Source: a bacterium BMS3Abin08 (GTDB lineage Bacteria; Nitrospirota; Thermodesulfovibrionia; Thermodesulfovibrionales; JdFR-85). Taken from it: a stretch of 43,035 nt of DNA. The stretch covers positions 1 to 43,035 of the forward strand of contig BDTA01000094.1 in the NCBI GenBank assembly GCA_002897935.1, read 5' to 3'. Position 1 is the first letter of the stretch, and the number at the start of each line of letters is the position of its first letter. This document shows positions 4,244 through 36,644 of the stretch, in pieces. The position numbers and the translations under genes were made by a program. The notes below the pieces were generated by a model. The model made no database searches and had not been told where the DNA came from. It worked only from the letters and a program-made list of their open reading frames with translations.

Positions 4244-4270
4244 ATATCGACCTGATCTCAGAAAACTTTA
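4244..4270 (-). promoter_or_regulatory. Sigma-28 (FliA) promoter for rhodanese-MCP
   Basis: On the minus strand: TAAAGTTT (-35, at 4270-4263), 11 bases, then GTCGATAT (-10, at 4251-4244). This matches the enterobacterial FliA consensus TAAAGTTT-N11-GCCGATAA with the exact spacing. The predicted leader is about 50 bases. Confidence 0.85.
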
Positions 4271-9222: not shown

Positions 9223-9248
9223 CAGGACTTTTACCAGTGCATCAACTA

Positions 9249-9393
9249 TAGTCTGTGTATAAACTGTTGTTTTATATTTTTGTCATACCCGAAGTCTGTA
9301 GTCGGGTATCCAGAAGTTATTGAAAAGACTGGATTCCGGCTTAAGGACTGCCGGAATGACAGATAGAGAGACTGACTTTATACACAGACACTA
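9249..9393. repeat. TA-flanked inverted-repeat element, copy C
   Basis: Left end TAGTCTGTGTATAAAC, right end CTTTATACACAGACACTA. The inner part has GTCATACCCGAAG...CGGGTATCC and GGATTCCGGC...GCCGGAATGAC. An almost identical inner variant occurs at 42213-42359, and a reversed one at 17866-18012. Confidence 0.8.
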
Positions 9394-9482
9394 ACTAAGG
9401 GACTTGTTCTATAAACTTCGCGTCCCTGTGCCTCTGTGTTTAATTTTCTACAGAAATATTGGAAGAGCCTGAAAACACATTA

Positions 9483-9585
9483 ATGTCATTCAAATTTATT
9501 TTAGAATCTCGTATTCCCAATACGTTGCATTTATAGAGATCCTGAAACAAGTTCAGAGCTTGTCCTGAATTTATTTCAGAGATGA
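9483..9585. repeat. TTCAG/CTGAA family repeat
   Basis: GTCATTCAAATTTATTTTAG, CTCGTATTCCCAATACGTTG, GAGATCCTGAAACAAGTTCAG and a TTTCAGAGATGACA end. It is a diverged copy of the unit at 4469-4574 and ends 39 bases before the stop of the histidine kinase gene. Confidence 0.65.
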
Positions 9586-9624
9586 CAATTTATGGTTTGG
9601 GCAACAGCCCTTATAAGACCTGAA

Positions 9625-11586
9625 TCACTCCGACACCGGCCGGGTGCACGGATGAACCGAATCCTTCGAGGGTTTTCTCGCCAGGGGCAACTCAATATAG
9701 AAGGCCGTTCCTTCCCCGAGTGTGCTTTCAACCCAGAGATTGCCGCCGTTCTTCTTCACAATCCCGTGAGAGATCGAAAGCCCCAGCCCCGAGCCCTTAT
9801 TAACCGGTTTGGTCGTGAAGAAGGGATCGAAGATACGGGGGATTACATCCCCGGGAATTCCTATCCCGTTATCCGCCACCGATATCAGGATCCGTCCCTT
9901 TTCCTTATCATACCCGGTACAAAACCTTATAAACTTCCCGGGCTTGTCCACCTCTTCAATAGCATGCTCTGCATTTACGAGTATATTGAGGATAACCTGC
10001 TGAATCTGCTGTGGATCTATAAGGGCAAGGGGCAGCTCGCTGAACTCCCTGATCACGTCGATATTATTGGATCTTAACCAGTAAATCCTGAGTTCAACGG
10101 CACTGTCTATAATATCGTTTACCTGGGCATACGCCATTTCAGGCGGCTTCTGCCTTGAAAAGGCAAGAAGGTTCTCGACAATCCTCCTGCAGCGTTCGGC
10201 AGCATCGGCAATCTTCTGTAGTTCCTTCTTCAACATGCCGTCATCGGTCTTCAACTGGAGGAGTTCCGTATAACCTATAATACCGGTGAGGGGATTATTT
10301 ATCTCATGGGCAACGCCTGATACCAGGAGACCGAGAGAGGAGAGCTTATCAGCATGATACAGTTGAGCCCGCAGCCTGTTCATTTCAGTAATATCCTTGA
10401 AGATATTCACCATGGCACCGATGCCACCGGGGAGGACGGTCGGGAAACCACTTACAAGATAGGTTCTGTCCCGGTAAGACAGTTCTTCTATAAAAGATTC
10501 TCTCCTGTTCATCAGTTCTTCCCTGAGATAGAGATTAAGCAGGCCGCTCTCCGCTGAGACGTCCTTGATGTCCTTCCCTACTATCCCCTTTGGATGTATT
10601 CCACATGCATCGGCAAAGGCGGTGTTGCACTTATGAACCTTACCCCTTTCATCAACAACAAAGAGGATATCGGAGATTGCATCAAACGTATCCTGCCAGA
10701 GCTGCTGACTGTAAGAGACCATCTGAAAGAGCATGCTGTTTCTCAGGGCGGAACTGCTTGTATCGGCAAAGATCTCAAGGGTGCTTATATCGGACTCCTC
10801 CAGCTCCACTTCATCACGAAACATGATCTGGAGGACACCACGTTTGTTGGTCATGATATCCACGGGAACAGCAACGACCACCCTTATGTCTTCATCCTTA
10901 AGCCCCTCCCACAGACAGGAATGCCCGTCGTTCTGCCTGACCAAAGTCGTTCTTGCAACATCAAAATACAGGCTTTTAAACTCCCGGACATCGATACCCT
11001 CTGTTACGGCAGTGACTATGTCTCTCTCTCCGTCGACCACCATGAGGATCCCGGCATCGGCTGAGAGCAGTTTGATCCCCCTGCAAAGCACCCGGTTCAT
11101 GGTCTCTTTTTCATCAAGGCTCCTGTTGATTTCCTTGACTATGGAATTCATCATCAGGAGCCTCTCGTTAAAATCGTTTATCTTCTTGTGTATCCTCTTA
11201 AGCTCCATCCCGGCAAGAAACTCCTCCCTCACCTTCCTGTATACCTGGGGCAGTGCATTAAAGTAGCCTATATCCTTGATTACATAATCATAGGCGCCGG
11301 CCTTCATTGCCTCAACAGCTTTACGTTCATCTCCATGGGCCGTGATAATCACTGCCGGGACATTCACACATCCCCTGTTTAATTCCTTCAGAAACTGAAT
11401 GCCGTTCTTTCCGGTCAGGGCATAGTCAACGAATATGACATCGATATCCTCTTTCTCAAGCACTTTATACCCCTCGGACGGCGATCCTACAGTATAGACC
11501 TCCACTGAAGGTTCATACCTCTGGAATGCCTTCTTTACAAGGGCATGCTGCTCTATGCTGTCATCTATCAAAAGGACTTTGCCCAT
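9625..11586 (-). CDS. Sensor histidine kinase with N-terminal receiver (REC-GAF-PAS-HisKA-HATPase)
   Basis: 653 residues from ATG 11586. A GTG 12 bases upstream is possible, but AGGTG is then part of the codon. Order: receiver (about 1-120) with the Asp in VIFVDYALTGKNG and the Lys in DYVIKD; a GAF-like region (about 150-300); PAS (about 310-415, AISDILFVVDERGKV); HisKA with GVAHEINNPLTGI holding the phospho-His; and HATPase_c with DNGIGIPG and GSGLGLSISHGIV. NtrB/AtoS-like kinases have this H-box. A receiver at the N-terminus suggests it is itself controlled by another kinase. It lies 151 bases downstream of motB on the same strand. No dedicated regulator adjoins it, so its partner is unknown. 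Confidence 0.93.
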   Translation of the reverse strand: MGKVLLIDDSIEQHALVKKAFQRYEPSVEVYTVGSPSEGYKVLEKEDIDVIFVDYALTGKNGIQFLKELNRGCVNVPAVIITAHGDERKAVEAMKAGAYDYVIKDIGYFNALPQVYRKVREEFLAGMELKRIHKKINDFNERLLMMNSIVKEINRSLDEKETMNRVLCRGIKLLSADAGILMVVDGERDIVTAVTEGIDVREFKSLYFDVARTTLVRQNDGHSCLWEGLKDEDIRVVVAVPVDIMTNKRGVLQIMFRDEVELEESDISTLEIFADTSSSALRNSMLFQMVSYSQQLWQDTFDAISDILFVVDERGKVHKCNTAFADACGIHPKGIVGKDIKDVSAESGLLNLYLREELMNRRESFIEELSYRDRTYLVSGFPTVLPGGIGAMVNIFKDITEMNRLRAQLYHADKLSSLGLLVSGVAHEINNPLTGIIGYTELLQLKTDDGMLKKELQKIADAAERCRRIVENLLAFSRQKPPEMAYAQVNDIIDSAVELRIYWLRSNNIDVIREFSELPLALIDPQQIQQVILNILVNAEHAIEEVDKPGKFIRFCTGYDKEKGRILISVADNGIGIPGDVIPRIFDPFFTTKPVNKGSGLGLSISHGIVKKNGGNLWVESTLGEGTAFYIELPLARKPSKDSVHPCTRPVSE

Positions 11587-16269: not shown

Positions 16270-16296
16270 GTATCGGACATTTTCCGGAAAACTTTA
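16270..16296 (-). promoter_or_regulatory. Sigma-28 (FliA) promoter for the FlgM-like/regulator/motAB operon
   Basis: Minus strand TAAAGTTT at 16296-16289, 11 bases, TCCGATAC at 16277-16270. It lies in the gap between the first fliS (stop 16294) and the FlgM-like start (16181), giving a leader of about 80 bases. The -35 box overlaps the end of the fliS coding region by three bases. Confidence 0.82.
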
Positions 16297-16770: not shown

Positions 16771-16797
16771 ATATCGGCCATTCAAAGAAAAACTTTA
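16771..16797 (-). promoter_or_regulatory. Sigma-28 (FliA) promoter for fliS paralogue 1
   Basis: Minus strand TAAAGTTT at 16797-16790, 11 bases, GCCGATAT at 16778-16771. This is the closest of the five to the enterobacterial consensus. It gives a leader of about 55 bases. Confidence 0.88.
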
Positions 16798-18196: not shown

Positions 18197-19894
18197 TCAA
18201 CCGGATACCACATCTTCCGTCAACTGTGGTGTGCCGGCCAACAACTCCAGGGATTCCAGGAGGATCCGTGCATGTTTTCTCAGGTCATTATAAAGAACCT
18301 GAGCACCTCCTGCAAGTGCTGCAATATCATCGCCCTCAAGACTCTCCATACCGTACCTGAACATCAGCAGCAGGGCTTTCAGGGGCGGATGCGAGTAACA
18401 GAGCTTCTCAATCTCCCCGTCAATCAAGGAAATATTCTTCCACAGCTCCCTGATAAGCGAGCCGTCTGCCCCTTCCTTACCTGACTCCCTCGATATGACC
18501 CCTATAACCGAGGATGCTGCGTCAGAGAGGTCCAGAAGTCCCTTAAGCGCCTTCCTCTCAACCGCGGTAAAACCGGCTATCTCCTCAGGATCCACATCAT
18601 ACCAAGCGAGCATCTTCTTCATCAGGGGGCTTAAAAACTCATCGGTACTCTCAGTGTCCTTCCGATCCAGTACAAGCTGCCATGATTTCCTGAAGAGTAT
18701 TATATAAAAAATCTCCTTGGTAAGCCTCCTCCTGATCAGGGGTTTATACTCGATCAGACCGTCACGGTCAAACATGGAACGGTAAACCTGTATGTCATCA
18801 TGGAACACAGATGGTTCGATAAACTCCATATCACCTCCGTCCCTAACCATTCTCGCAAGCTCATAAACCATATCAGGAGAGACCAGCCTCTTGCAGACCG
18901 GGTCCTTGCAGCCTGTCTTAAACCCGCAGGGACTGCAGGGGATCTCCGCCCTGATTACATAATGTCCATCTCCATAGGGACCGGTCTCCCTGAAATGAAC
19001 CGAAGCGAGTGAGATATTGATCGTCTTTGTACCAACGGCGGTTGCAATATGGAGGGGCCCGGTATCATTGCTGATGAAGAGGTTGCAGCTCTTTATCAAT
19101 GCGGCAAGCTCCTTGAGATCGGTCTTGCCGATAAAGTTCAGGCAGTCCGTCCTTATCAGTGACTCAAAGCTCCTCCCCAGTTCCGCCTCCTCCTTTGAAC
19201 CGGTAAGAACCACCTTTGCACCGAGTCTTAAGGAGAGCATCTCCGCTGTCTTTACAAAGGATTCCACCGGCCATCTCTTGTCCCCGGCGCTTGCCCCGAG
19301 CTGCAGCCCCACGACAAAATCACCTTCCGACAAACCTTCATTTCCGAGAAGATGATCGACCCAGTCTTCAATGTCTCTCGGCACTTCCAGGTACAGGCCC
19401 TTCCTTTCAGGCATAACGCCGCTGACCTTAAGGTGCATATCGCAGAGGTGAAAGGGATTGTAGTCCCTTGCCGGGATCACATTAAAGAAGTACCTGATCC
19501 AGGGGTGTCTCTTTACATTGTGGCCCTGTGGATCAATGCTGATTCCCCTTATCTCCCCTGCCCTTATCAGGGATGTAAGGACGGCGCTGTCCATGGAATG
19601 GGTGAAGTTGATCGCAAGATCATAAAAGGTATCGTTGATCACGGAGATTACCCCTTCAATGTGTCTGTAACATTCAATTATCCCCCCTTCCCCGAGGGCA
19701 TTCACAATATCGTTAATCTTGAGCGTAAAGACCCTGTCGATCAATGGGATGTATTTGCATATCTCAACAAAAGTCTCACTCACAAGAAGGGTGATCCTTA
19801 CCCCCGGGTACCTCTCCTTAAGCCCCATGATCACGGGGGTGCTCTGTATCAGGTCTCCCATGCGGGTCAGGTTGATTATGATCACCTCTTTCAC
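18197..19894 (-). CDS. Glycosyltransferase family 9 (heptosyltransferase-like) with C-terminal extension
   Basis: 565 residues, GTG start. The first ~350 residues are a GT9 enzyme: NLTRMGDLIQSTPVIMGLKERYPG at the N-terminus, LQLGASAGDKRWPVESF for the nucleotide-sugar domain, and SNDTGPLHIATAVGTKTI, the family signature. GT9 enzymes move heptose from ADP-heptose to LPS core or to proteins. A further ~200 helical residues without known domain follow (after CSPCGFKTGCKDPVCK). It ends the leftward island and follows the GT17-CgeB gene by ten bases. gmhA at 6410 could feed ADP-heptose synthesis. Transfer to a flagellin glycan is likely from context but unproven; LPS core is the alternative. Confidence 0.88.
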   Translation of the reverse strand: MKEVIIINLTRMGDLIQSTPVIMGLKERYPGVRITLLVSETFVEICKYIPLIDRVFTLKINDIVNALGEGGIIECYRHIEGVISVINDTFYDLAINFTHSMDSAVLTSLIRAGEIRGISIDPQGHNVKRHPWIRYFFNVIPARDYNPFHLCDMHLKVSGVMPERKGLYLEVPRDIEDWVDHLLGNEGLSEGDFVVGLQLGASAGDKRWPVESFVKTAEMLSLRLGAKVVLTGSKEEAELGRSFESLIRTDCLNFIGKTDLKELAALIKSCNLFISNDTGPLHIATAVGTKTINISLASVHFRETGPYGDGHYVIRAEIPCSPCGFKTGCKDPVCKRLVSPDMVYELARMVRDGGDMEFIEPSVFHDDIQVYRSMFDRDGLIEYKPLIRRRLTKEIFYIILFRKSWQLVLDRKDTESTDEFLSPLMKKMLAWYDVDPEEIAGFTAVERKALKGLLDLSDAASSVIGVISRESGKEGADGSLIRELWKNISLIDGEIEKLCYSHPPLKALLLMFRYGMESLEGDDIAALAGGAQVLYNDLRKHARILLESLELLAGTPQLTEDVVSG

Positions 19895-19904
19895 AGGCAG
19901 GTCC

Positions 19905-22544
19905 TCATTGCTTTACAAGGTATTGGTTCTTCATCTGGTTCATAAGTATAAAAAGCTTCTCAACCCTGGAAAGGTCCCCTTCACCCTCATGTATTCCCTC
20001 CACGATATCCTCAATACTCACCTCTGCCCTGTCAGCCAACCTCATCAGATACCTGCCGAGCTCGGAATCCTTTCCAGCCTTCTCCACCAGTTCCCGGACA
20101 TCCTCTCTACCGGACCTCCGGAGCGGCGGCTCGAATCCCGTCTCAACGATAAAATCCATCATCTCCTCCATCCTGTGCTCATAGGTGTGTTCCTTCCTTA
20201 CACGATCGGAAGCCCTCTTTGCTATCTCCTCCCTTTCCGCAGGGTTGTCAAGGTAATGCCCGACCTTTTTCCTTAAGTCATCGAGGCCGTTAAAGCATAC
20301 AATCTCTTCTCCTATCTTAAACATCTCCGGGATATACCGGCGGTAATCAACAAGCTGGAATCTCCCGCATGCTGCGATCTCGAAGGTCCTGGGATTAACA
20401 AAGTCCCCATAGGGGTTGACACCGTCATGGTATGCCGAGGAATGGAGATTGATGTTTATCTTTGTTGCATTGAAAATCCTCACTGTCTCCTCAGTGCCTA
20501 TCCTTTCACCATCCCTCTGAAGCAGAGCACCCACGGGGCCGCCCGTGTCCCATTCATTTCCCCAAATCCTGAAGTCAAAATCAAGGAGCCCCTCAAAGAA
20601 TTTCCGCCTGTTTCTGTATCCGGCACCGACAAAGGAGATATCACTTCCGTACTCCCCGATATCCTCCTCCGTCAGGTCCATCCCCCTGTGCACATCAGGT
20701 GAAGCAGCCATGGGGAGGTAATGAACACCTTGCCCCTTACGACCACTGAGTTCCCGGAGTATCTCCTCTTTCTGGATCGTAAAAAAGTAGTCATAGGACT
20801 GCGCAGCCCCCCGCCAGTACTCCATGCATCTGAAGTCCTCGACAAACCAGAATGCGGTCTTCAATCCTGTACCCCTGAGCCTCTCGATGCCCTCAGCCTC
20901 AAGCGGCGCCTGTGCAAGGGCAAACAGGAGATCCGGCTTCCACTCATCACACCTTGCAAGCACTGCCTCTGAGGCAAACCTCACAAAGGCAGTCCTGAGT
21001 GCCCCCTGATGCACCCCTTTGGATGTTATGGCATTAATGGAGTGGAATATGTCCCTATAGGCGCTGTTGTCGATATAATCAACCCTGTGACCAAGCCTCC
21101 TCAGGGCCTTCACACAGTACTCCGTCACAGGAAGAGAGCCGCCGTAGATGGGACCGACCACTGCTATCCTCAAGCCCCGTCTTATCTTCTTGATTACATT
21201 CAGCCTGTCCCGGACCCTCTCGAAGTATTCAGGGCTCAGCCTTACCGACGGGGTGTGTTCAAGGATGTCAAAACCCTCCTTAACAACCGGCAGGTTCCCA
21301 CCTGTTATAAACCTGACCCTTCCTATGACCTCCCTCAGATCCCTGTGCCTGAAGGCCTCCTTCAGGACATCAAGACGCGGCTCGAAAACCACGATTTCAC
21401 TCTCCGTCATCCTGCATAACCTCTCAATGTGATAACCAAAGGCAAAACCGAACACGCAGAGCACCTGCGATCCGTCTACTGCATCCCTGTAATGAGCGGC
21501 CCATACACCGGCCTCCTCCGACGGCCTGTAGAGGCTGTGAAGGGTCAGGCCGACGACGCGCAACGTCTTCTCACCATTGCGCGCATCAAACACCCGGCAA
21601 TCGCCTGTTCCTATTGCCTCCTTAAGAAGCAAGACCAGTTCAGGATCCACCTCTTTCAGGGCCTCCATATTCCCGGTAAATATTGAGCCCGGTTCAATCT
21701 TCTCATCATCAAAACCGGGAGATAGTGCGCACTTGTCATTCCCCGACAGCCCCCTGTTCCGTGCAACAGGCATTTTACCCGAATCGCCGTCGGACTCTTT
21801 AATAAGATGTCTGAACTTAGCGAGGTTCTTAAGCAGGTAGCAGGGATAGACCTTGTCAAAACCAACAAACCGGTACGTGTACCCCCTGTCAAAGGGGTCC
21901 TTACCTCTTTCAATCTTTTCCTGAAGCCTGGTGATATCCTTATAATATGAATTATCAACCTCCGCATGGGAAAAGGATTCAATCTTTTCTATTATCTTTT
22001 TCACGCCCCCGAGATAGGAAAAATGCCAGCCCCCGCAATCTATTTCCGGAAGAGCCTCCCTCAGATCCCTTATATCCTGAGGGGTTGAAATATGCTTATA
22101 CCCGATCATAACCGTCCCGTTCCAGGAGACTTCCGCCTGACAGTTGAGATAGTAGTAGTAGAGTCTCTGTTTAAACACCTTTGCACCGCCGGACATGTTC
22201 CTGACCACCCCCTCCGGTGAGGGTATTTCATCGACATCCGATATCAGGATTGTGTCCCCCTGATCACAATCTTCAAGCCCCCTCATGATAGCGTTTCTCT
22301 GATATATCTCCCGCTGCCACCGATTCTCCGTAACCGGCATATCGTCCACTATTACATGTATTATCCTGTCCCGGAAGGCTTTAAACCGACCTTTGTTTTT
22401 CTGGTAACAGAGTTCCTTCTTCTTTCCGCTGAATGTCTCTGTGGACTCAACAAGTACAAAAAAGTCCACCACATCGCTCAGCTCATGAAGCCTGATCTCC
22501 AGGAGATCAAGCTCATCAAAAAATATAAAGGTATCGTATATCAT
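19905..22544 (-). CDS. Three-part glycosyltransferase: GT17 + MAF-like domain + CgeB-type GT
   Basis: 879 residues. Part 1 (about 1-280) is GT17-like, with FFVLVESTETFSG, the W-x-RE-x-x-QRNAI region and an ISDVDEIP metal motif (DxD). Family 17 includes eukaryotic beta-1,4-GlcNAc transferase III and many bacterial proteins. Part 2 (about 310-460) has LHSLYRPSEEAG, CVFGFAFGYHIERL and EIVVFEPRLD, like the N-part of MAF/DUF115 flagellin-modification proteins. Part 3 (about 470-790) is CgeB/GT1-like with the C-terminal NPRTFEIAACGRFQLVDYRR and REEIAKRASDRVRKEHTYEHR. Parts 2 and 3 are shared with the protein at 25606. A helical tail (790-879) ends it. The fusion implies two successive sugar transfers in one polypeptide. 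Confidence 0.88.
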   Translation of the reverse strand: MIYDTFIFFDELDLLEIRLHELSDVVDFFVLVESTETFSGKKKELCYQKNKGRFKAFRDRIIHVIVDDMPVTENRWQREIYQRNAIMRGLEDCDQGDTILISDVDEIPSPEGVVRNMSGGAKVFKQRLYYYYLNCQAEVSWNGTVMIGYKHISTPQDIRDLREALPEIDCGGWHFSYLGGVKKIIEKIESFSHAEVDNSYYKDITRLQEKIERGKDPFDRGYTYRFVGFDKVYPCYLLKNLAKFRHLIKESDGDSGKMPVARNRGLSGNDKCALSPGFDDEKIEPGSIFTGNMEALKEVDPELVLLLKEAIGTGDCRVFDARNGEKTLRVVGLTLHSLYRPSEEAGVWAAHYRDAVDGSQVLCVFGFAFGYHIERLCRMTESEIVVFEPRLDVLKEAFRHRDLREVIGRVRFITGGNLPVVKEGFDILEHTPSVRLSPEYFERVRDRLNVIKKIRRGLRIAVVGPIYGGSLPVTEYCVKALRRLGHRVDYIDNSAYRDIFHSINAITSKGVHQGALRTAFVRFASEAVLARCDEWKPDLLFALAQAPLEAEGIERLRGTGLKTAFWFVEDFRCMEYWRGAAQSYDYFFTIQKEEILRELSGRKGQGVHYLPMAASPDVHRGMDLTEEDIGEYGSDISFVGAGYRNRRKFFEGLLDFDFRIWGNEWDTGGPVGALLQRDGERIGTEETVRIFNATKININLHSSAYHDGVNPYGDFVNPRTFEIAACGRFQLVDYRRYIPEMFKIGEEIVCFNGLDDLRKKVGHYLDNPAEREEIAKRASDRVRKEHTYEHRMEEMMDFIVETGFEPPLRRSGREDVRELVEKAGKDSELGRYLMRLADRAEVSIEDIVEGIHEGEGDLSRVEKLFILMNQMKNQYLVKQ

Positions 22545-22650
22545 GACCTTACAGTCCCCGGCAACGGCATATCACCCATCTGAATCAGGCAGTTACCGGC
22601 CCGCAATATATACCGTGCATATAAATTATGCATACCGGGCGGTTTCAAAG

Positions 22651-22690
22651 CACCTTGCCGAAAGCCCCGACCTTTGGTCGGAGAGCTCGA
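22651..22690. repeat. GGTCGG palindrome repeat, second location
   Basis: CACCTTGCCGAAAGCCCCGACC and TTTGGTCGGAGAGC, the same unit as at 17106-17209, in the 162-base gap between the GT17-fusion start and the GT2 stop. Confidence 0.7.
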
Positions 22691-22706
22691 CTCCGTTTTT
22701 GCCCTC

Positions 22707-23546
22707 TTATACCCAGGCCTCCACGATGCCTCTCAACCCGCAGGCTTTCTCAGCAAAGCCGCTGTCAACGAGTATCCTGTAATAAAAGTTCATAAAATCT
22801 CCGATAAAAGGATACGTGTTTTTATCTTTCACTTCAGAGATGACGTCAAATGTCTTTTCAAATTGCGGCAGGGATTCTTCTATCCTGCCTGTTTCAAAAA
22901 GGGTCATTGCCAACTTATAATTTGCATATATATTGTCCGGATCGGATTCTATCCACTTTCGTAAAATTCCGATATTTCTTTCATGCTTACCTGTGGCATT
23001 GAAGGAGAGGTGTCCATAATGCCTTAGATGAATATCTACTACCTCAGGCTTATATCCCGGCCAGTTTCTATACACCGATTCACAAATACTTTCATGAACA
23101 TGGTTTCTAAATCTGATTCCGGGGTCGTTTCTGAATAATCTCATTACCTTAACCTGTCCGACACCACCATTATCATACAAGTTGTCCTGCCATATAATAT
23201 ACGCCGGTTTATTGTTTATCCTGCAAGCTTTCTCTATAAGCAGCTTCGCATTCTTATCATACAGAACCTCATCGCAATCAATATTCAGGATCCATTTGTA
23301 TCTTGCCTGTTCAACCCCAAAATTCTTGGCCTTTGAAAAGTCATCACACCATTGAAATTCAAAAGTCCTGCATCTGAATTTCCCGGCAATTTCGACGGTA
23401 TTATCATGAGACCCTGTATCAATAAAGACGATCTCGTCAGCAATGCCCGTTATATGTCTTAAGGTCCGGTTAAGAATATTCTCTTCGTTCTTAGCTATTA
23501 CAACAACCGATAATCCGTCTTTCAGTTTTGACATTTTTGCCTTCAT
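22707..23546 (-). CDS. Glycosyltransferase family 2 with C-terminal TPR-like helices
   Basis: 279 residues. GT2/WaaE-like: LSVVVIAKNEENILNRTL, EIVFIDTGSHDNTVEIA and LNIDCDEVL (DxD-type metal site). A late GHLSF...KHERNIGILRKWI segment is typical of the bacterial proteins that join GT2 to TPR units. The C-terminal YANYKLAMTLFETGRIEESLPQFEKT is one TPR. The start overlaps the stop of the sulfotransferase gene as ATGA (23543-23546), so it is translated with it. It probably adds a hexose or heptose to the same glycan; the donor is unknown. Confidence 0.9.
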   Translation of the reverse strand: MKAKMSKLKDGLSVVVIAKNEENILNRTLRHITGIADEIVFIDTGSHDNTVEIAGKFRCRTFEFQWCDDFSKAKNFGVEQARYKWILNIDCDEVLYDKNAKLLIEKACRINNKPAYIIWQDNLYDNGGVGQVKVMRLFRNDPGIRFRNHVHESICESVYRNWPGYKPEVVDIHLRHYGHLSFNATGKHERNIGILRKWIESDPDNIYANYKLAMTLFETGRIEESLPQFEKTFDVISEVKDKNTYPFIGDFMNFYYRILVDSGFAEKACGLRGIVEAWV

Positions 23547-25345
23547 TGTATCTTACAATCAAGAATCTTTTCTCTCAACTCCAGTGCATCTTCTCTATCA
23601 GGCTCAAATATAAGGATTTTTTCAAGATCCTCCATGGCCTTATCCAACAGGCCAAGCCCACAGCACACTTCCGCACGTTTTAAAAGGACATTGATATCAA
23701 CCGGGTGAAGAGCTAAATACTCTTCAAGCAACTTCTTTGCCTTGTCAAGATTCCCTGCTTCAATGGCGGTCGTTACAGCACCGTCCAATCTCCGAACCTC
23801 AACCCCCGCCTTCTGTGCCTTTAACAGATATTGAAATACAAAGAGGTCCTTTAACTCCTCGGGGGTAAGCCCCCTCAAAGAGACCCTGCCAAAGGATATC
23901 TCGCCTGAAAGGGGATCTTTTAATAAATTATATGCCGGATCAATATTGGCAGTCAGCCCTGTAAGCTCAAACCCGGCATCTGCAAAGAGCTCTTCCATAT
24001 CTTTTTTAGTAAAAAATCTCAGATGGGTCCTATCAAGGATGCCGGAGTCTTCATATTTCCAGTATCCTTCAACCAGCATATTTATAATGCTATAGAATCT
24101 GATATTTGGAATACTCGCCACAACAACACCTGAAGCAGAAAGACTCTTCCTGAGTTTTCTTAATGTGGATAGAGGGTCTTTCAGATGCTCCAGTATGTCC
24201 GCTAAAATTATGCAATCAAAATATCCCTCACTAAACGGAAGTTCAATTTCTTCTATATCTCCACATAAAACCCCTGTCAGATTTTTTTCAGCTCTTTCGC
24301 ACACATCCGGGAAAATATCTACGCCAACTACTTCACCTGCACCCTTCTCCAAAAGCCTTCTGCCAAGGTAACCCTCTCCAGAGCCCACATGCAGGATTCT
24401 CTTTGCATCTTCCGGGATTATAGCCTCTACATCCTTTAGTTCAGCATGAAGGTAGTCAGCAGCCATTGAGTCTGTAGATGATATAGTTGATGATGGATTT
24501 AACGGTTTTATCCGGGGATTCGGCTGTTCCTTTTGCAATTGCATCCTGATATCATCAAATGTCTTTGTGATTGATTCATCAACACTATCTCTTGTAGAAC
24601 ATTCATTAAAAAGATGGTTCAACACAGAAACTACAGGGGCAATGTTATTACCAATAAAGTTGCCGTCAAAGTTATGATGTTTCATCTCCGGGTCTATAAA
24701 AGATTCTATTTCTTCCTTTACCTCCGGAAACGATCTTGATAGCTTGATATCTAAAGTACAGGTAATTTTGTCTATAACCTGTTTTGCATCCTTTAGCAGA
24801 TCATCATACCTTGAGAAGGTCCTTGGATAACCTCTGCTATAGTATTCTGCATTCAACATATATTTCATCCATAAATGCATCGATTTTCCAATGGAAAATC
24901 CATTTCTTTTTTTTAATGAATCAGCAACTTCCAATGGATTTCTTACAGAAATAATATAATGAGGTTTTAGGTTTAGTTCTTCAAATATTTTTTTCCAGAA
25001 AGGGAGTAATATACATAGGCGTGAATCCTTTATACCAAAAACCTCCGGTTTTTTAAATTCTTTGGCTATATTCTCTATTATTTCTTTTTTATAAACATTT
25101 AAACACTTTTGATTCCACCAATCTTCTGAAAACGAAAACAGATCATGCCATGATGAATTTAAACTCCTCAATATCTTTTCATTTACCTGCACTATGCTAT
25201 TATTTTCAAAAAATCCTTTTGGATTATCTTTCGCAGGATTCATTAAGTTTGAACCCAACTTTACACCCAAAATATTCAATACACCCATAAGAGTTGACGT
25301 CCCACTTCTATGCATTCCCAAAACTATTATACAGTCTTGCTTCAT
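23543..25345 (-). CDS. Sulfotransferase - SAM methyltransferase - TPR fusion
   Basis: 600 residues, ATG with GAGAGGGG upstream. Domain 1 (about 1-250) is a P-loop sulfotransferase: GMHRSGTSTLMGVL at 10-23 (5'-phosphosulfate loop) and ISVRNPLEVADSLKKR (3'-phosphate region). Domain 2 (about 315-470) is a class I methyltransferase: ILHVGSGEGYLGRRLLEKG, VVGVDIFPDV, FDCIILADILEHLKDP. Domain 3 (about 525-600) has two TPR-like helix pairs. It would use PAPS and S-adenosylmethionine to add sulfate and methyl groups, plausibly to the flagellar glycan, with the TPRs holding the partner. The sulfotransferase half is clearly more AT-rich than its neighbours, suggesting separate acquisition. Confidence 0.9.
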   Translation of the reverse strand: MKQDCIIVLGMHRSGTSTLMGVLNILGVKLGSNLMNPAKDNPKGFFENNSIVQVNEKILRSLNSSWHDLFSFSEDWWNQKCLNVYKKEIIENIAKEFKKPEVFGIKDSRLCILLPFWKKIFEELNLKPHYIISVRNPLEVADSLKKRNGFSIGKSMHLWMKYMLNAEYYSRGYPRTFSRYDDLLKDAKQVIDKITCTLDIKLSRSFPEVKEEIESFIDPEMKHHNFDGNFIGNNIAPVVSVLNHLFNECSTRDSVDESITKTFDDIRMQLQKEQPNPRIKPLNPSSTISSTDSMAADYLHAELKDVEAIIPEDAKRILHVGSGEGYLGRRLLEKGAGEVVGVDIFPDVCERAEKNLTGVLCGDIEEIELPFSEGYFDCIILADILEHLKDPLSTLRKLRKSLSASGVVVASIPNIRFYSIINMLVEGYWKYEDSGILDRTHLRFFTKKDMEELFADAGFELTGLTANIDPAYNLLKDPLSGEISFGRVSLRGLTPEELKDLFVFQYLLKAQKAGVEVRRLDGAVTTAIEAGNLDKAKKLLEEYLALHPVDINVLLKRAEVCCGLGLLDKAMEDLEKILIFEPDREDALELREKILDCKIQ

Positions 25346-25462
25346 TTAGCCCCTCTCGAATTAAATATTTGGTATCTGTAGTTCCATACTAAAGTATTTT
25401 AGGCCTAACCTTGCAAATTATATAACGCATCAGGTCTATCAGCCTTGATAAGTTATTTTATT

Positions 25463-25608
25463 TAGAGTCTGTGTATAAATTACAGTCATTTGTCATTCCC
25501 GCAATCCCGAATGCATTCGGGAGCCGGGAATCGTTCTTTAAGAAGGATTCCGGACAAGCCGGAATGACGGAATAACGACAACTGTTCGACATTTATACAC
25601 AGACTCTA
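25463..25608. repeat. TA-flanked inverted-repeat element, copy F; overlaps a stop codon
   Basis: Left end TAGAGTCTGTGTATAAAT, right end ATTTATACACAGACTCTA. The interior holds CCCGAATGCATTCGGG and GGATTCCGG...CCGGAATGAC palindromes. On the minus strand its last three bases are the TAG of the MAF-CgeB gene. The remainder of 25346-25462 shows only the upstream region of the sulfotransferase gene, with no promoter I can assign. Confidence 0.85.
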
Positions 25609-27294
25609 TTTATACCTGTTTTTCATAAAGTGAATCATGCTGTTAAGCCTGTGTCTGTATGTGTGTTCCCTGAGAATCCTCTCTCTGCCCTTTCGGGCGA
25701 TTACTTCCCTTTCTTTTGGATTGCGGAGATAAAACCTCAATAGATCGGGAATCTCACCCCTGTCTCTGTAAGTGACAACCTCTTTCCCTACATCAAAGAG
25801 TTCCTCTATCGCCTCCTGGTGGTCTGTCAGGAGAAAACTACCACATGCCGGAACATCAAAGACCCTCTGGTTTACAGATCCCAACATCTGAAGGCTTGTG
25901 GCATTAAAGTTTATCTTACAGGCATTATAAAAGACGGGGAGTTCATTGTAATAGTGCAGAGGGGGCTCAAGCCCGTATCCATCAGGCAGCAACTCCTTCC
26001 ATTGTTTATCTCCATAGATAACAGGGCTGAACTCTCTCAAAGCCTTTATACAGGAGAGGCGATAAAGCAACGTCGCCCTCCAGAGGACAGCAGCCTCGAA
26101 ATCAAGCTTTTCTTGAACCAAGAGGGAATTAAACATACCCAAATCTTCCCTTTTCAGAGTTGCCAGTACCGCATCAAAAAAAACCCTCTCTGAACTCAGA
26201 AGCAGTGATATCTTCTCAATGAGGCAATGGAGCCCTCCCGGAACCTTCTTCATGCTCTCCATTGCCGGGACCACCATGGAGTTGCCCACAAAAGCAACAT
26301 CGCACTGACTGCAACCGGGGCCTATCCTCCTGCCCCTTGCAGGCCTGAAGACCCTGTCGTCTGTGGCAAGCGGGAGGTATCGGACTGACTCAAAACCCAT
26401 TGCCTCCATATCCTGTATATACGCCCTGTCCCATAAAAAGAGGGAGACATAAGGGGATACATTTCTGTCAAAGGCCCTGACAATAAGGTTGGGACTGTCT
26501 ACGTACCATGATGCCAACGGCATATCTATTGATTTCAGGAAGGAGGTCAATACCCCATCCTCATCAAGACCTAAATGATTTATGGCAAGAATAAAATCAG
26601 GCTTAAACCTCAGTATCCCGTCAATCAACATAGAGACAACAACCTCACCGCTGTCTCCCTTGCTTACCGGCACCTTTATAACCTTATGGCCGAGGCGTAC
26701 AAGTGCACGCTCTATCTCACGGGTCAGGAAATAGCCAAAGTCAATCATTACAACACTGATGACATCTTCCCTGAACTTGGGATACCGCAATCTATCCCAC
26801 AGTTTTACAGCGATTGTGTTCTTCAATGAGGCAAAAACGGAATTATAGTAACCAGGGAAGGCAGACATGGCTGAGGACAGTGGAAAAACCTCTAACGGGA
26901 CCATCCCGAGCCTTACCTGATGTCTCGTGATCTCTTTAATCGCCTCTTTTAAAGGAAGACCAACCATGAATGTAATTCTTCCAGCAAGCCCGGATATCAC
27001 CCCATGCTCCTTTGCAAGCTCATATATCCCCGGCATTGCCTCGACCACCAGAATCTCCGCCTCAGGGAACCGCTGCACCAACTCCTTCAGATGATAACCA
27101 AGCCCCAGACCCAGGACCACCAGAATCCCCCTGCCGTCAAACCGAAAGGCATCAACAACGGCCGTTGCCTCGGCCTCCGGGTCATAGAGGCTGTGGAGGG
27201 TCTTTATTGATCCGTTATCACAGGTAACCCTTAATGAAAACTTACCGCTTTTTGTCGTCACCATAGATATATTATGAGATACAGATACCGGCAC
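25606..27294 (-). CDS. MAF-like domain + CgeB-type glycosyltransferase
   Basis: 562 residues, GTG start one base after the GT4 stop, with AAGGA eight bases upstream. The N-terminal part has LHSLYDPEAEA, VVLGLGLGYHLKELV and EILVVEAMPG, a pattern shared with part 2 of the protein at 19905 and with DUF115/MAF flagellin-modification proteins. The C-terminal part is CgeB/GT1-like: NQRVFDVPACGSFLLTDHQEA and REVIARKGRERILREHTYRHRL. MAF proteins attach nonulosonic acids to flagellin in other bacteria. Here the role could be recognition of the acceptor plus sugar transfer, which is inferred. The stop codon lies in the end of a dispersed repeat. Confidence 0.87.
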   Translation of the reverse strand: MPVSVSHNISMVTTKSGKFSLRVTCDNGSIKTLHSLYDPEAEATAVVDAFRFDGRGILVVLGLGLGYHLKELVQRFPEAEILVVEAMPGIYELAKEHGVISGLAGRITFMVGLPLKEAIKEITRHQVRLGMVPLEVFPLSSAMSAFPGYYNSVFASLKNTIAVKLWDRLRYPKFREDVISVVMIDFGYFLTREIERALVRLGHKVIKVPVSKGDSGEVVVSMLIDGILRFKPDFILAINHLGLDEDGVLTSFLKSIDMPLASWYVDSPNLIVRAFDRNVSPYVSLFLWDRAYIQDMEAMGFESVRYLPLATDDRVFRPARGRRIGPGCSQCDVAFVGNSMVVPAMESMKKVPGGLHCLIEKISLLLSSERVFFDAVLATLKREDLGMFNSLLVQEKLDFEAAVLWRATLLYRLSCIKALREFSPVIYGDKQWKELLPDGYGLEPPLHYYNELPVFYNACKINFNATSLQMLGSVNQRVFDVPACGSFLLTDHQEAIEELFDVGKEVVTYRDRGEIPDLLRFYLRNPKEREVIARKGRERILREHTYRHRLNSMIHFMKNRYK

Positions 27295-28542
27295 TTAGCT
27301 GTTCCTTTGCTGGTTTGCATAGATGGATTTATATTCTTTCTCATAAACATACGCCTCCTGTTCCACAGTCGGTATTATGTAGTTTTTTATATTATTTTTC
27401 AGCACATTTAGTATCTCCGGGTTGTTTATCAACATCTCAAGAGTTTCTTTCAAATGCCCGGATTTGCCTAATTGAAAAGTAAAACCATTGATCCCGTTTT
27501 TTATTTTTTCAGCCATCCCTCCAACATTAGAAGCTATTACCGGCACATTACAGGCAAGTGATTCATGCAATACCAGCGGATAATTTTCATACCAGAGTGA
27601 AGGTACGATAACAACGTCGACATTAGCAAGGATGTCCCCGATCTGGTTCTCGGAAAACACACTACAGAACTCGATCCTCTTATCATCCTTAGCCACATCC
27701 TTGATTGCATCGACATACAGCTGGTCGGTCCCTGAACCATACACTTTAAGAGAAACACCGTCTGCAGTTACCCTTTTAAAGGCGTCTATAAGAACATGAA
27801 CACCTTTATGATGATTAAACGACCCACCGTAAAAAAAAGTAAGCCTATCCTGTTTTTTATAAACTTTTTTGTTCTTTTTAATTTTCCCGTAGCTCATACC
27901 GTGATTTACAATGCCTACATTAAGATCTCTGATTTCTCTTCTAAACATGCTTGAAACGAACCTGGATGGAGATACAACCCTTTTTGCATCAAACAAAACA
28001 CCTCTTGCCGACTTTATTCTTTGAACAACTAATTCCCCTGGAATTTCAGGACAGAGTTTCCGACAGGCATCTCCATTCTCTGCACCTGCACATAAATCGC
28101 CTTCAGAAGTAAATAAAACAGCCTTGGGGCAAAGCAGCCAAAAATCCGTAAGTGTTGCGATATAGGGTATCCCGAACGACCTTACAACCTTTACAAATTC
28201 GCCTACTCTCATAGAATGCCCAACATGGACTATGTCCGGTTTTTCATTTGAAATTAAACTCTCCGCTGCCTCGGCCATGTCTTTATTTTGTAAACCATAC
28301 CCCAAATCCCCGGGAATTTCCTTATGCCTCAAAGCCACCACCGGGATTCCTTTATATAAAAATTCCTTAATCAGGATACTTCCATCACTCCGATCATAAA
28401 ACGAGTCCCCGTAAAAACTGTACGTGACAACCTTTACCTTATGTCCCAGCATTTGCATCATCATCGCCATGTTTAATACAAACTTCTCCGTCCCGGTATA
28501 ATACTCAGGATAAAACTGATGCACCAAATAAAGGACCTTCAT
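27295..28542 (-). CDS. Glycosyltransferase family 4
   Basis: 415 residues. The N-domain shows HQFYPEYYTGTEKFVLNMAMMM, typical of GT4/GT1 GT-B enzymes. The C-domain has LTFFYGGSFNHHKGVHVLIDAF, VVIVPSLWYENYPLVLHESLACNVPV (with the EX7E-like pair) and ASNVGGMAEKIKNG. A cysteine-bearing insert (CAGAENGDACRKLC) is seen in the relatives that carry LLCPKA just before it. It uses an unknown nucleotide sugar, retaining mechanism. It lies two bases downstream of the methyltransferase-GT2 gene and abuts the next gene, so it is part of one transcript. Confidence 0.92.
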   Translation of the reverse strand: MKVLYLVHQFYPEYYTGTEKFVLNMAMMMQMLGHKVKVVTYSFYGDSFYDRSDGSILIKEFLYKGIPVVALRHKEIPGDLGYGLQNKDMAEAAESLISNEKPDIVHVGHSMRVGEFVKVVRSFGIPYIATLTDFWLLCPKAVLFTSEGDLCAGAENGDACRKLCPEIPGELVVQRIKSARGVLFDAKRVVSPSRFVSSMFRREIRDLNVGIVNHGMSYGKIKKNKKVYKKQDRLTFFYGGSFNHHKGVHVLIDAFKRVTADGVSLKVYGSGTDQLYVDAIKDVAKDDKRIEFCSVFSENQIGDILANVDVVIVPSLWYENYPLVLHESLACNVPVIASNVGGMAEKIKNGINGFTFQLGKSGHLKETLEMLINNPEILNVLKNNIKNYIIPTVEQEAYVYEKEYKSIYANQQRNS

Positions 28543-28544
28543 AT

Positions 28545-31070
28545 TTAAACCCCCACGGTCAACTCTCTGTTGAAATCTTTTAATATTTCCTTTCTTTTGC
28601 TGTCAGGAGTTTTCAGATAACAGTATGCTGAATGTGCTCCCACCTGATATGCAAACGCCTTATAAATGCACGACTTGAAATCCTCAAGCAGATGGTCATC
28701 TATTAAATCATAGGTGTTTCTCATATACTCAAAGGCCGAACCGATAAAACCCTGCATCGCTTGAACAAGAATACTGTTAGAGGACCATTGATTTCTTTTG
28801 CTCTCATACCGGGAACAGATCCTGCCCAAAAAAGACCTGAATTCATTATCAACATATTGATTGTCAGCTACGCCGGCAGAGGCAGGATATCCATACTTCA
28901 CGGCCCTCTCAAATCTTTGAATAAAGATACCGGTAAAGGCCCCCATATTACAAGGGATATTTATAGCGCTTAGTTCTTCAGTTATAAGAGAACTTACAGC
29001 ATTGTACGTAAAAATAATATCCCTCATAAAATTCTCTATCCCAAGGGATACAGACGGCATTGGAAGGTCCGGGAAAATAGTCGCCAGGGACAAAGTGTCT
29101 ACGTACGCCCTCTTCAGGTGATAATATGCCGGTCTATTGTGAGAATGAATAACAGATGTAGAACCGAGAAAAGCAATTTTGAGGCCATCTCTTATAAGCC
29201 TTATCCCGAGATCCAGATCCTCTGCATAGTCGCGCCTGAACTTATACTTCTCAAAAACACTCCTCAATATAAGACAGGCTATATCAGATAACTGCCCGTT
29301 CTTTCTTAACGTTACGTAATTCTCCACCTCTGGTCGTGATAAAAGCCTGTCCCTTACATCCACCTCTAAAAATCTATAATGGTTCCGGGAGATAATCCTG
29401 TAGAACAAATCCGCATCCTCCCGTGGTGATTCCATACATGAAACAGCAACAGCTTCATTATTCTGTAATGCATTCAACATCTCATAAAGCCAGAAATCAG
29501 ATGACGGTAAGGCATCCTGAGTCATGAAAAGTATATACTTTCCAGAGGCTAACCCGGCTCCAAGGTTTCTTGCATAAGAATGGGAAAACCTCTCAGGGGT
29601 GATTTCCACTAACCTTGCATCGTGTTCTTTCACAAGTTCAAGGGTCTCATCGGTACTCCCCGAATCTACTACAATAACCTCTATATCCTTAATTCCTTTC
29701 TGGTTCCTGAGCATGGGCAGAAGAGTTACCAGGTCATTACCCGCATTTAATGTTGGTATTATAATAGAGACGGTCGCATCATCTGTGGGTTCTATTCTTT
29801 TCTCTTCGACATCCATCAAAGATATCTGTGGAACTTTAATATCTTTTTCACCTGTCAGGACCTTCAGCGTCTCAGACAACATTGCAAGGTTTGCCTTGGC
29901 CTCTTCATTGTCAGGATCAATTTCAAGTGCTTTTATAAAACAACCTCTGGCAGCATCATAATCTCCGGATTGAAAACCCAATACTCCGAGGTTGTTCAAT
30001 GCATCGGTGTTTTCGGGGTTTAACGACAGGGCTTTCTCAAAGAAACTTCCGGCACTCTCTATTAATCCGAGAGCGAAGCATAACTCACCTGTCTCCACTG
30101 ATAGTTTTGATGAACCCGCTTCCTTTTCAAGCCGCTTCAGTACCTTTCCCAGCGCCGGCAACACACCTTGTATTTTTTGTATCGAGCCCGACATCTCTTG
30201 TATGGTTGCTTCGAGGCCGGCGATTTGATCATTCTTATCCTGGATAACTGATTCAAAGCCGGCGATTTGATCGGTCTTATCCTTGATAACTGCTTCAAGG
30301 TCGGTGATTTGATCATCTTTATAGCAAATGAGGGTGTTGGAGATGTCTACAAGATGAGAGTTCCCTATGGCCCTGTCATGTTCCAAGACACAATCCGAGA
30401 CAACTGCTATAAAATACCTCGCCATCTTCTTTTCAGGTGACAAAAAATAAAACCCTTCATCACCTTTCTTTATCATAAAGTCTCTTGAAATCGTTGCGCC
30501 TTTATAAAGGGGGAACATATTTGAAGAAGAATAAACATTCTGACCATAAAAGAGGATATTCTTGAAGTTAGCGGTTAGGAGATTCTCAAACTCATCAAAA
30601 CCGAGTTCTTTAACATGGAATGGATTCTCGTATCCCGGTTCATCAGAATATACAGTCTTGTTAGGCGTTGAAACTATAAAGACACCCTCTTTTTTAAGCA
30701 ACCTCTTTGTCTGCTTCATTAATTCATCGTGTCCGGCTATATGCTCTAATGCCTCAAAGCAGACTATGACGTCAAACAGGCCCTCTCCCTCTACCGGCAC
30801 TTCCATCATAGAGCCTTTAATGAACTGAAGATTACCCCTTATATACTTGGAAGTGGCATGTCTTATAGCTGCATCATCTATGTCCACACCTAATACGGAA
30901 CCGGCATCCTCAGAGAGCATGAAACTCCCGTATCCCTCTCCGCATGCTAAATCCAGGACCTTTTTGTCTTTTACTAATTCCTCAGCAAACCTGTACCTGT
31001 GCAGGTGTTCATAATTTATTACCGGGTCTTTCTCCCACGGTACAAACCTCTCTCCCGTCGATTCAAGCAT
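28545..31070 (-). CDS. Methyltransferase - coiled coil - TPR - GT2 fusion
   Basis: 841 residues from ATG 31070 with AGGAG eight bases upstream; ATG 31091 is the longer option. Order: class I methyltransferase (about 30-200; VLDLACGEGYGSFML, LGVDIDDAAIRHA, FDVIVCFEALEHI); a coiled coil (about 245-290) made of three 14-residue repeats DQIxxLExxIxDK; TPRs (about 320-410; NTDALNNLGVLGFQSGDYDAA); and GT2 (about 430-680; VSIIIPTLNAGNDL, EVIVVDSGSTDETLEL), followed by a ~150-residue helical tail. It could methylate and extend the same glycan while the TPR binds a partner. It is the first large gene of the island, 53 bases after the TPR fragment. Confidence 0.9.
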   Translation of the reverse strand: MLESTGERFVPWEKDPVINYEHLHRYRFAEELVKDKKVLDLACGEGYGSFMLSEDAGSVLGVDIDDAAIRHATSKYIRGNLQFIKGSMMEVPVEGEGLFDVIVCFEALEHIAGHDELMKQTKRLLKKEGVFIVSTPNKTVYSDEPGYENPFHVKELGFDEFENLLTANFKNILFYGQNVYSSSNMFPLYKGATISRDFMIKKGDEGFYFLSPEKKMARYFIAVVSDCVLEHDRAIGNSHLVDISNTLICYKDDQITDLEAVIKDKTDQIAGFESVIQDKNDQIAGLEATIQEMSGSIQKIQGVLPALGKVLKRLEKEAGSSKLSVETGELCFALGLIESAGSFFEKALSLNPENTDALNNLGVLGFQSGDYDAARGCFIKALEIDPDNEEAKANLAMLSETLKVLTGEKDIKVPQISLMDVEEKRIEPTDDATVSIIIPTLNAGNDLVTLLPMLRNQKGIKDIEVIVVDSGSTDETLELVKEHDARLVEITPERFSHSYARNLGAGLASGKYILFMTQDALPSSDFWLYEMLNALQNNEAVAVSCMESPREDADLFYRIISRNHYRFLEVDVRDRLLSRPEVENYVTLRKNGQLSDIACLILRSVFEKYKFRRDYAEDLDLGIRLIRDGLKIAFLGSTSVIHSHNRPAYYHLKRAYVDTLSLATIFPDLPMPSVSLGIENFMRDIIFTYNAVSSLITEELSAINIPCNMGAFTGIFIQRFERAVKYGYPASAGVADNQYVDNEFRSFLGRICSRYESKRNQWSSNSILVQAMQGFIGSAFEYMRNTYDLIDDHLLEDFKSCIYKAFAYQVGAHSAYCYLKTPDSKRKEILKDFNRELTVGV
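30205..30330. repeat. Three tandem 42-bp units inside the methyltransferase-GT2 gene
   Basis: Units 30205-30246, 30247-30288 and 30289-30330 share the core CCGGCGATTTGATC..TCTTATCC. Each encodes 14 residues (two heptads) with DQI/GLE/VIQDK spacing, so copy-number change would lengthen the coiled coil by whole turns without a frameshift. Confidence 0.85.
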
Positions 31071-31123
31071 GGTTCTTTCTCCTGACAACATACCCGGCCG
31101 TTTTCCAACCCGGTCGATTACGA

Positions 31124-34191: not shown

Positions 34192-35034
34192 TTACTTCAA
34201 GAGAGACAGGGCAGTCTGTGGAATAACGTTTGCCTGAGCAAGTATGGCGGTAGATGCCTGCACCATAATCTGGTTCTTGGTAAAGACCGCTGTCTCAAAT
34301 GCAAAGTCGGCATCCCTGATCCGGGAGTCCGCAGCCGAGAGGTTCTCAGAGGCGACCCTCAGGTTTGAAATGGTATTGTCAAGCCTGTTCTGGACAGCGC
34401 CGAGTGTACCCCTCCGTTCTGCTACCGTTGCTATTGCCGAGTCTATCTGGGTCAGAGCGGACTGGGCGTTACCGGCGGAAGATATGGTGCCGAATGTTCC
34501 CGTAATACCGAGATCATCGGTCTTTGTTGCTCCAACTCCGGAGAAGAACGTGATCCTGTCGTTAACGGTATTCTGGAAGCCGACCTGCAATGTTACACCG
34601 GCTCCACTCTTCGAACCATCGAGCATTTTGGTACCGTTAAACTCCGTAACATCTGCAATCCTGTCGATTTCGGACTTGAGCTGCTGATACTCATTATCAA
34701 GTGCTGAACGTTCAGTAGATCCAAGGGTTCCATTGGCAGACTCTTCCGACAGCTCCCTCATCCTGGCAAGAAGTCCTCCGATCTGGTCAAGACCGCCCTC
34801 CGCCACCTGTGCAAGGCTTATGCCGTCCTGGGCATTCCTGGTTGCAACGTTTATACTTCTAATGTGTGCCCTTAACTTCTCAGAGATCGCAAGACCTGCT
34901 GCATCATCCTTTGCACTGTTTATCCTGAGACCTGAAGACAGCCGCTGGACCGAGACAGAGAGTTTGTTTATGTTTGCTGCAAGGTTCCTCTGAGCATTCA
35001 GAGACATTACGTTTGTGTTAATTACCAGAGACAT
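34192..35034 (-). CDS. fliC: Flagellin
   Basis: 280 residues. N-terminus SLVINTNVMSLNAQRNL and KLSVSVQRLSSGLRINSAKDDAAGLAI; C-terminus ASENLSAADSRIRDADFA and MVQASTAILAQANVIPQTALSLL. These D0/D1 regions are near the textbook consensus. The middle is short (about 90 residues) and Ser/Thr/Gly-rich, offering O-glycosylation sites. There is no Cys. It has an AAGGAGG ribosome site, a FliA promoter about 140 bases upstream and a hairpin in the leader. It is the likely acceptor for the sugars made by the downstream island. Confidence 0.97.
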   Translation of the reverse strand: MSLVINTNVMSLNAQRNLAANINKLSVSVQRLSSGLRINSAKDDAAGLAISEKLRAHIRSINVATRNAQDGISLAQVAEGGLDQIGGLLARMRELSEESANGTLGSTERSALDNEYQQLKSEIDRIADVTEFNGTKMLDGSKSGAGVTLQVGFQNTVNDRITFFSGVGATKTDDLGITGTFGTISSAGNAQSALTQIDSAIATVAERRGTLGAVQNRLDNTISNLRVASENLSAADSRIRDADFAFETAVFTKNQIMVQASTAILAQANVIPQTALSLLK

Positions 35035-35175: not shown

Positions 35176-35202
35176 CTATCGGACATTTCCTGAAAAACTT
35201 TA
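35176..35202 (-). promoter_or_regulatory. Sigma-28 (FliA) promoter for fliC
   Basis: Minus strand TAAAGTTT at 35202-35195, 11 bases, TCCGATAG at 35183-35176. The site and the next 20 bases closely resemble the FlgM-like promoter at 16270 (both have GAAAATGTCCGATA or near it). Confidence 0.88.
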
Positions 35203-35334: not shown

Positions 35335-35384
35335 TATATATCTGCAATGTCTCACAATATTCAATTAATACAGGAGGCTAAATC

Positions 35385-36644
35385 ATGTCCGACACACAAC
35401 ATATCGCTTTCAGGCTCGGCAGAGAGGAGTTCGCTCTTCCGATTCTTAACGTTCAGGAAATCATCAGGCCAAGGGAAAACACGAGAATCCCCGAGTCACC
35501 GGAATATATCCTGGGTGTAATCAACCTCAGAGGAAGGGTGATTCCCGTTGTAGACCTGAAAAAACGTATGAAGCTGGAAGGCAACGGTAACGGCACCGGT
35601 GAGAACAAAGTGATTGTCCTTTCCCTCGGCAAACTCAACTTCGGGGGTGTTGTCGACAGTATTACGGGGGTTGTTAATATCAGCGAGCAGGAGATAGGGG
35701 ACAGTGTAAGCACATTATCCTCCTCATCCTGTGACTATATAAAAGGAATTGCAACACTTAATAACGGAAGGATGATACAGATACTCCAGCCGTCCGGGCT
35801 GATGTCACTCCAGGATATGGAGTTACTCCAGGATGAAATAGTGGATGAAACCCAAACGGAAGACGGGACAATAGTCGTTACCAAAAAGGTCAGCGGCATG
35901 GGGGGCGAGTATCTAATCAAGGAGGTCAAGGAGAAAATCATAACCGATGCCGAGTCCCTGGGGGTTGGCAGGGAGGTTGTGGTATCAATAATGGAGAAGA
36001 TCCAGGGCCTGCTTAACGCCCTCTCCAAAGGCGATATTGAAGGAGCAGAAGGAATGCTGATGGAGATATCGACCATCGGCGACAAAGAACTCTTTTCGGA
36101 GGTTGGAAAGATAACAAGAAATCTTCATAACGCCATATCCGAGTTCAAGACCATGATCGATCCGACACTCAAGAACATGGCCCTTGAAGATATGCCGGAT
36201 GCCGCCGACAAACTCAACTGGGTAATATCAAAGACAGAGGAGGCAGCGGAAAAGACGATTTCCCTCGTGGAAAAGAACCTCTCCCTCCAGGGAGGGATAG
36301 TCAAGAGACTCGACATCCTTGACGATGCCCTGAAGAATCCGGAAGGGGACAATGAGAGGGAGAAGGAGGCAATAACCTTCTTAAGAAGGACTACCGAGGA
36401 GATAAACGTCGACCTTATGGACGTCCTCCTCACACAGGAATACCAGGACCTTACAGGACAGATCATCAGGAAGGTCATCTCCCTGGTCAGCAAACTTGAG
36501 ATAGACCTTGTTCAGTTGATAAAGGCATTCGGGGTCAGGGTGGAACATCAAAAACATGGAAGCACTGCTGACTCGGAGCCCCCCGAAGAGACCTTCTCAA
36601 GCCAGGAGGATGTTGACACCCTGCTTACGGAGTTGGGCTTTTAA
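35385..36644 (+). CDS. CheW-CheZ fusion: coupling domain joined to a CheY-P phosphatase
   Basis: 419 residues, ATG with AGGAGG upstream. Residues 1-140 are CheW: FALPILNVQEIIRP, then YILGVINLRGRVIPVVDLKKR. Residues about 185-419 are CheZ: a long helical hairpin with MPDAADKLNWVISKTEEAAEKT and LLTQEYQDLTGQIIRKV, in which D355 and Q359 match the catalytic DxxxQ (D143/Q147 in E. coli CheZ). It ends QEDVDTLLTELGF, matching the CheY-binding C-terminal helix of CheZ (DDLLDSLGF in E. coli). The fusion would place CheY-P dephosphorylation at receptor-kinase arrays. CheV (CheW-REC) is excluded because there is no receiver. It has its own FliA promoter, divergent from fliC. Confidence 0.93.
   Translation: MSDTQHIAFRLGREEFALPILNVQEIIRPRENTRIPESPEYILGVINLRGRVIPVVDLKKRMKLEGNGNGTGENKVIVLSLGKLNFGGVVDSITGVVNISEQEIGDSVSTLSSSSCDYIKGIATLNNGRMIQILQPSGLMSLQDMELLQDEIVDETQTEDGTIVVTKKVSGMGGEYLIKEVKEKIITDAESLGVGREVVVSIMEKIQGLLNALSKGDIEGAEGMLMEISTIGDKELFSEVGKITRNLHNAISEFKTMIDPTLKNMALEDMPDAADKLNWVISKTEEAAEKTISLVEKNLSLQGGIVKRLDILDDALKNPEGDNEREKEAITFLRRTTEEINVDLMDVLLTQEYQDLTGQIIRKVISLVSKLEIDLVQLIKAFGVRVEHQKHGSTADSEPPEETFSSQEDVDTLLTELGF

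Follow-up and report, generated by a model that had tools for sequence, protein, structure and literature searches.

The window, that is, the entire stretch of 43,035 nucleotides that we analyzed, contains a gene that starts with ATG and continues as a single uninterrupted frame (Table 1). Judged by sequence, its product belongs to both the CheW and the CheZ families. The original prediction was that a full CheW domain is followed by a CheZ phosphatase with the catalytic pair D355/Q359 and a CheY-binding tail, TLLTELGF, and all of these parts were recovered. The protein scores 127.2 bits against Pfam family PF01584 (CheW; cut-off 23.5, E 4e−37) and 138.2 bits against PF04344 (CheZ; cut-off 30.7, E 4e−40), so its C-terminal half is far above the CheZ threshold; D355 and Q359 both lie in the motif QEYQDLTGQ, and the protein ends in DVDTLLTELGF, which agrees with the tail of CheZ. 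Sequence matches in the PDB include CheW structures, the CheW-like domain of CheA, and E. coli CheZ (1kmi_Z, E 3e−12).

Table 1. Positions in the window of the cheW-cheZ fusion gene, the parts of its product, and the adjacent flagellin gene and promoters.
Feature	Position	Strand	Basis or remark
fliC (flagellin)	34192..35034	-	sequence inspection; flaG, fliD, fliS after it
sigma-28-type promoter of divergent flagellin gene	35176..35202	-	two mismatches
sigma-28 (FliA)-type promoter, TAAAGTTT-N11-GACGATAA	35307..35333	+	5′ of fusion; one mismatch to E. coli consensus
Shine-Dalgarno, AGGAGG	35372-35377	+	read from sequence; 5′ of fusion ATG
cheW-cheZ fusion gene	35385..36644	+	419 aa; open frame and both Pfam domains
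CheW domain, residues 6-141	35400..35807	+	Pfam PF01584 and 2qdl fold match
linker, residues 142-234	35808..36086	+	low-confidence segment about 150-180, helices after
conserved linker segment, residues 161-180	35865-35924	+	GGExxVKE-like
CheZ domain, residues 235-419	36087..36641	+	Pfam PF04344 and 1kmi_Z sequence match
catalytic Asp355	36447..36449	+	= E. coli CheZ D143; invariant 82/82
catalytic Gln359	36459..36461	+	= E. coli CheZ Q147; invariant 82/82
C-terminal CheY-binding helix, residues 407-419	36603..36641	+	predicted helix 407-416

The predicted structure of the whole protein is of moderate quality (pLDDT 73, pTM 0.44), and the mutual placement of the CheW and CheZ domains in it is undefined. 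The model contains a CheW barrel, a poorly defined linker (150–180), a CheZ hairpin, and a tail helix; in the CheZ part, the predicted helices 271–316, 324–382, and 407–416 correspond to the long hairpin and the separate C-terminal CheY helix. The CheW part matches the fold of 2qdl (Z 20.6, rmsd 1.9 over 145), the CheZ part gives a weak fold match with 1kmi_Z (Z 8.8, rmsd 11.4 over 150), and the significant PDB matches found by Foldseek cover the CheW fold alone.

We aligned 82 complete fusion proteins (the window protein and 81 others), all of which match both Pfam families, CheZ at an E-value of 1e−3 or better. Residues E25 and R49 in the CheW part, the equivalents of the E38–R62 salt-bridge pair that is needed for signaling by E. 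coli CheW (PMC3828127), are invariant (82/82), as are Q354, D355, G358, and Q359 in the CheZ part; in the CheY-binding tail, Q407 and L414 are invariant, and G418 and F419 are found in 81 of the 82. E. coli CheZ is docked on CheA-short by its apical aromatics F97/W98 (PMC7750401); the apical loop of the CheZ part contains no Phe or Trp in 77 of the 82 fusions, the window protein included. The CheZ proteins of alphaproteobacteria and deltaproteobacteria reportedly also lack this dock, so its absence is not unique to the fusions; the docking aromatics are not universal in CheZ and, hence, are not a defining feature of it.

Around the fusion gene, a cheA gene of the same orientation and at most 400 bp away is found in 61 of 80 loci (one extra match, an overlapping-frame artefact, was left out of this count), and among relatives the order cheY-[cheW.Z]-cheA is seen repeatedly in a block that includes cheR and cheB. 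The usual arrangements are HEAT-cheR-REC-cheY-[cheW.Z]-cheA-cheB and REC-cheY-cheA-[cheW.Z], with gene names assigned by inspection and profile. In one family relative, the che block with the fusion sits after fliM-flhA-fliA. In the family of the window genome the fusion gene has been relocated: in the window it is solitary and divergent from fliC; among the genes that follow fliC, FlaG and FliS were assigned by Pfam and FliD by inspection of the sequence.

Sigma-28-type promoters were scored against the E. coli consensus. With this consensus, the window contains six sites with three or fewer mismatches (0.29 expected), and when 2000 segments of 250 bases were drawn at random from the fetched loci, 2 contained a site that equals the quality of the one upstream of the fusion gene; also, three relatives with a detached fusion gene have a similar upstream site (two to three mismatches). 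Four more sigma-28-like sites in the window are at 3053–3079 (+), 4244–4270 (−), 16270–16296 (−), and 16771–16797 (−); the second of these is immediately 5′ of a rhodanese-like gene and a chemoreceptor gene. Glycosyltransferase-like and methyltransferase-like genes, identified by inspection, adjoin the flagellin genes (18197–31091, −); perhaps this run serves flagellin glycosylation.

We consider it likely that the protein is a natural CheW–CheZ fusion whose CheW domain keeps the CheY-P phosphatase within the receptor array. The CheW domain would occupy a CheW position in the receptor–CheA–CheW array, and the CheZ part, carried on a partly flexible linker of roughly 90 residues, would pair as the usual four-helix bundle of CheZ; the C-terminal helix would first grip CheY, and D355 and Q359 would then strip the phosphate from CheY-P, so that the phosphatase would stay at the kinase with no need to dock on CheA-short (here we infer array binding, dimerization, catalysis, and the effect on signaling). 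The original prediction also had fusion take the place of CheA-short as the anchor at the kinase. That the CheW part replaces CheA-short fits the evidence, that is, the invariant E25/R49 pair, the conserved CheZ active site and CheY tail, the missing apical Phe/Trp (77/82), and the adjacent cheA in most relatives. Against a tether to the array, the CheZ part occurs without CheW at locus L091, and at locus L082 the two are encoded in different frames.

A different role for the CheW part is conceivable, that is, a mainly regulated adaptor, as in CheV, through which the state or crowding of the array controls the phosphatase, so that the fusion would be an allosteric switch and not a plain anchor. 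The conserved GGExxVKE-like segment between the domains, which has no Pfam match and is found in the main fusion clade only, is consistent with such control, as is a model that argues for higher affinity and activity of cluster-bound E. coli CheZ (PMC2673030); however, a second clade of fusions (family f22, described below) has a different, unconserved linker, and we regard this role as possible but the less probable one.

Anchoring by the CheW domain, the reading we prefer, raises the question of the partner system in the window's own genome. The fusion is the sole CheZ above the cut-off in that genome; no second CheZ was found there (with the caveat of a CheZ-like receptor on contig C106, described below), and neither CheC nor CheX was found. 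The genome encodes three CheA proteins, none of which is orthologous to the fusion-linked CheA of relatives: their best identities to it are 36–41%, compared with 57–73% between most of the family relatives that hold it. No orthologue of the fusion-linked CheY was found in the genome, which is 96% complete. Without these CheA and CheY orthologues, both the partner system of the fusion and the 'at the kinase' part of the original prediction are uncertain in this genome. On contig C29 (locus L176), the flagellar genes fliM to fliA are intact (fliA at 9187–9927), and the che block that is found 3′ of fliA in relatives G122 and G372 (loci L172 and L173) is absent after fliA; it may therefore have been lost or moved, with an assembly gap elsewhere being possible. 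These absences could mean that the fusion is a leftover with little or no role in its own genome, its system having lost the CheA, CheY, and CheB that the operon encodes, and the che cluster on contig C106 has its own CheZ-like candidate; but the key residues of the fusion are all intact, a near-consensus sigma-28-type site lies 5′ of its gene, and the absent genes could sit in an assembly gap, so we judge a leftover to be unlikely.

The che cluster on C106 (receptor, cheY, STAS, cheA, cheR, cheD, and cheB) resembles the F7 type in its gene composition. In gammaproteobacteria, F7 systems displace F6 systems in flagellar control and the F6 cheY/cheZ pair is retained (PMC7184735); the situation in this genome may parallel such a takeover. 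Directly upstream of cheY on C106 (L048, 7381–8553, +) is the gene for a chemoreceptor-like protein of 390 aa in which an MCP signaling domain is followed by a CheZ-like helix, SMQFQDITRQRIEHV, with DxxxQ. The CheZ-like part scores 21.7 bits against Pfam CheZ, below the cut-off of 30.7, and an alignment of 23 proteins of the order (orthologues among L180–L207) shows no variation in its QFQDITRQR core; this protein may be a receptor that carries its own CheY-P phosphatase.

The original description of CheZ as best known in beta- and gammaproteobacteria is inexact: CheZ is not confined to these groups, and 234 of 396 genomes surveyed in the host phylum have a match. In the family, order, and class of the window genome, nearly all of the CheZ matches listed sit in frames of ~390–480 codons. 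Besides the window, we opened 80 CheZ loci in these groups (all but a handful of the matches there), and 78 of them encode CheW–CheZ fusions (two cut by contig ends); the join of CheW and CheZ is conserved across a bacterial class. Locus L082 has CheW and CheZ in adjacent frames, and the lone CheZ of L091 retains part of the fusion linker; both are probably broken fusions. An error of assembly or a frameshift between neighboring cheW and cheZ genes, a concern raised with the original prediction and one that the separate frames of L082 would suit, is refuted as the cause of the join because the same joined frame is conserved across species in about 80 independent assemblies, including the single-contig genomes G079, G083, G014, and G312.

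A fusion of the same type is found in a different part of the host phylum (genome G058), another in a genome drawn from a named-contig collection (G400), and three more in family f22 of the host phylum; the CheZ genes opened elsewhere in the phylum are mostly stand-alone (about 200–280 aa). In a sample of Pseudomonadota, CheZ is present in 152 of 398 genomes; the long CheZ frames in this sample were considered as further fusions and rejected, with no CheW in the 10 that were opened, nor in the one opened frame of ordinary length. In the CheZ tree, the f22 fusions join a stand-alone CheZ of family f22, away from the main fusion clade, and a single-clade constraint on all fusions is rejected (p-AU 3e−5, in a quick tree with long branches present); also, the f22 linkers are unrelated in sequence to those of the main clade. 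Thus, the CheW–CheZ fusion probably arose twice.

Given a join that is real, class-wide, and probably twice-evolved, the fusion looks like a natural means of attaching CheZ, the off-switch of the change-of-direction signal, to the sensor array, of which CheW is a scaffold part. It has long been asked why cells put the CheY-P phosphatase at the kinase; a natural covalent anchor with this distribution and history points to selection on placement itself, and the fusion is a ready-made construct for testing phosphatase placement. More tentatively, the union of a CheZ-type phosphatase with a core array protein may be a repeated solution (CheW–CheZ at least twice in the phylum), and the fusion described here may have persisted after the loss of its CheA/CheY operon and now serve a different che system, a course of events parallel to the F6-to-F7 takeover (PMC7184735), in a genome that also has a chemoreceptor with a CheZ-like helix.

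The anchors of CheZ are known to differ: CheA-short in E. coli, ChePep in H. pylori, and neither in Azorhizobium (PMC7750401). We found no earlier description of a CheW–CheZ fusion in the open-access literature, a search that does not establish priority. With stand-alone CheZ (PF04344; E. coli 1kmi), the fusion shares the active-site DxxxQ, the long hairpin, and the C-terminal CheY-binding helix, but it adds an N-terminal CheW domain and a linker and lacks the aromatics that dock on CheA-short; with CheW (PF01584), it shares the whole domain and the invariant E/R pair, but it bears a phosphatase. CheV (CheW plus a receiver domain; PMC4742279) also joins a CheW domain to a second chemotaxis module; in the fusion, however, that module is CheZ and not the C-terminal receiver of CheV (no Pfam match to Response_reg). 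In the CheA–CheC/CheX fusions of Leptospirae (PMC10782961), a CheY phosphatase is likewise joined to a core array protein, but the phosphatase is of an unrelated family and is joined to the kinase, whereas here it is joined to the coupler. The CheW–CheZ architecture stands next to CheV and the CheA–CheC/CheX fusions as a further variant.
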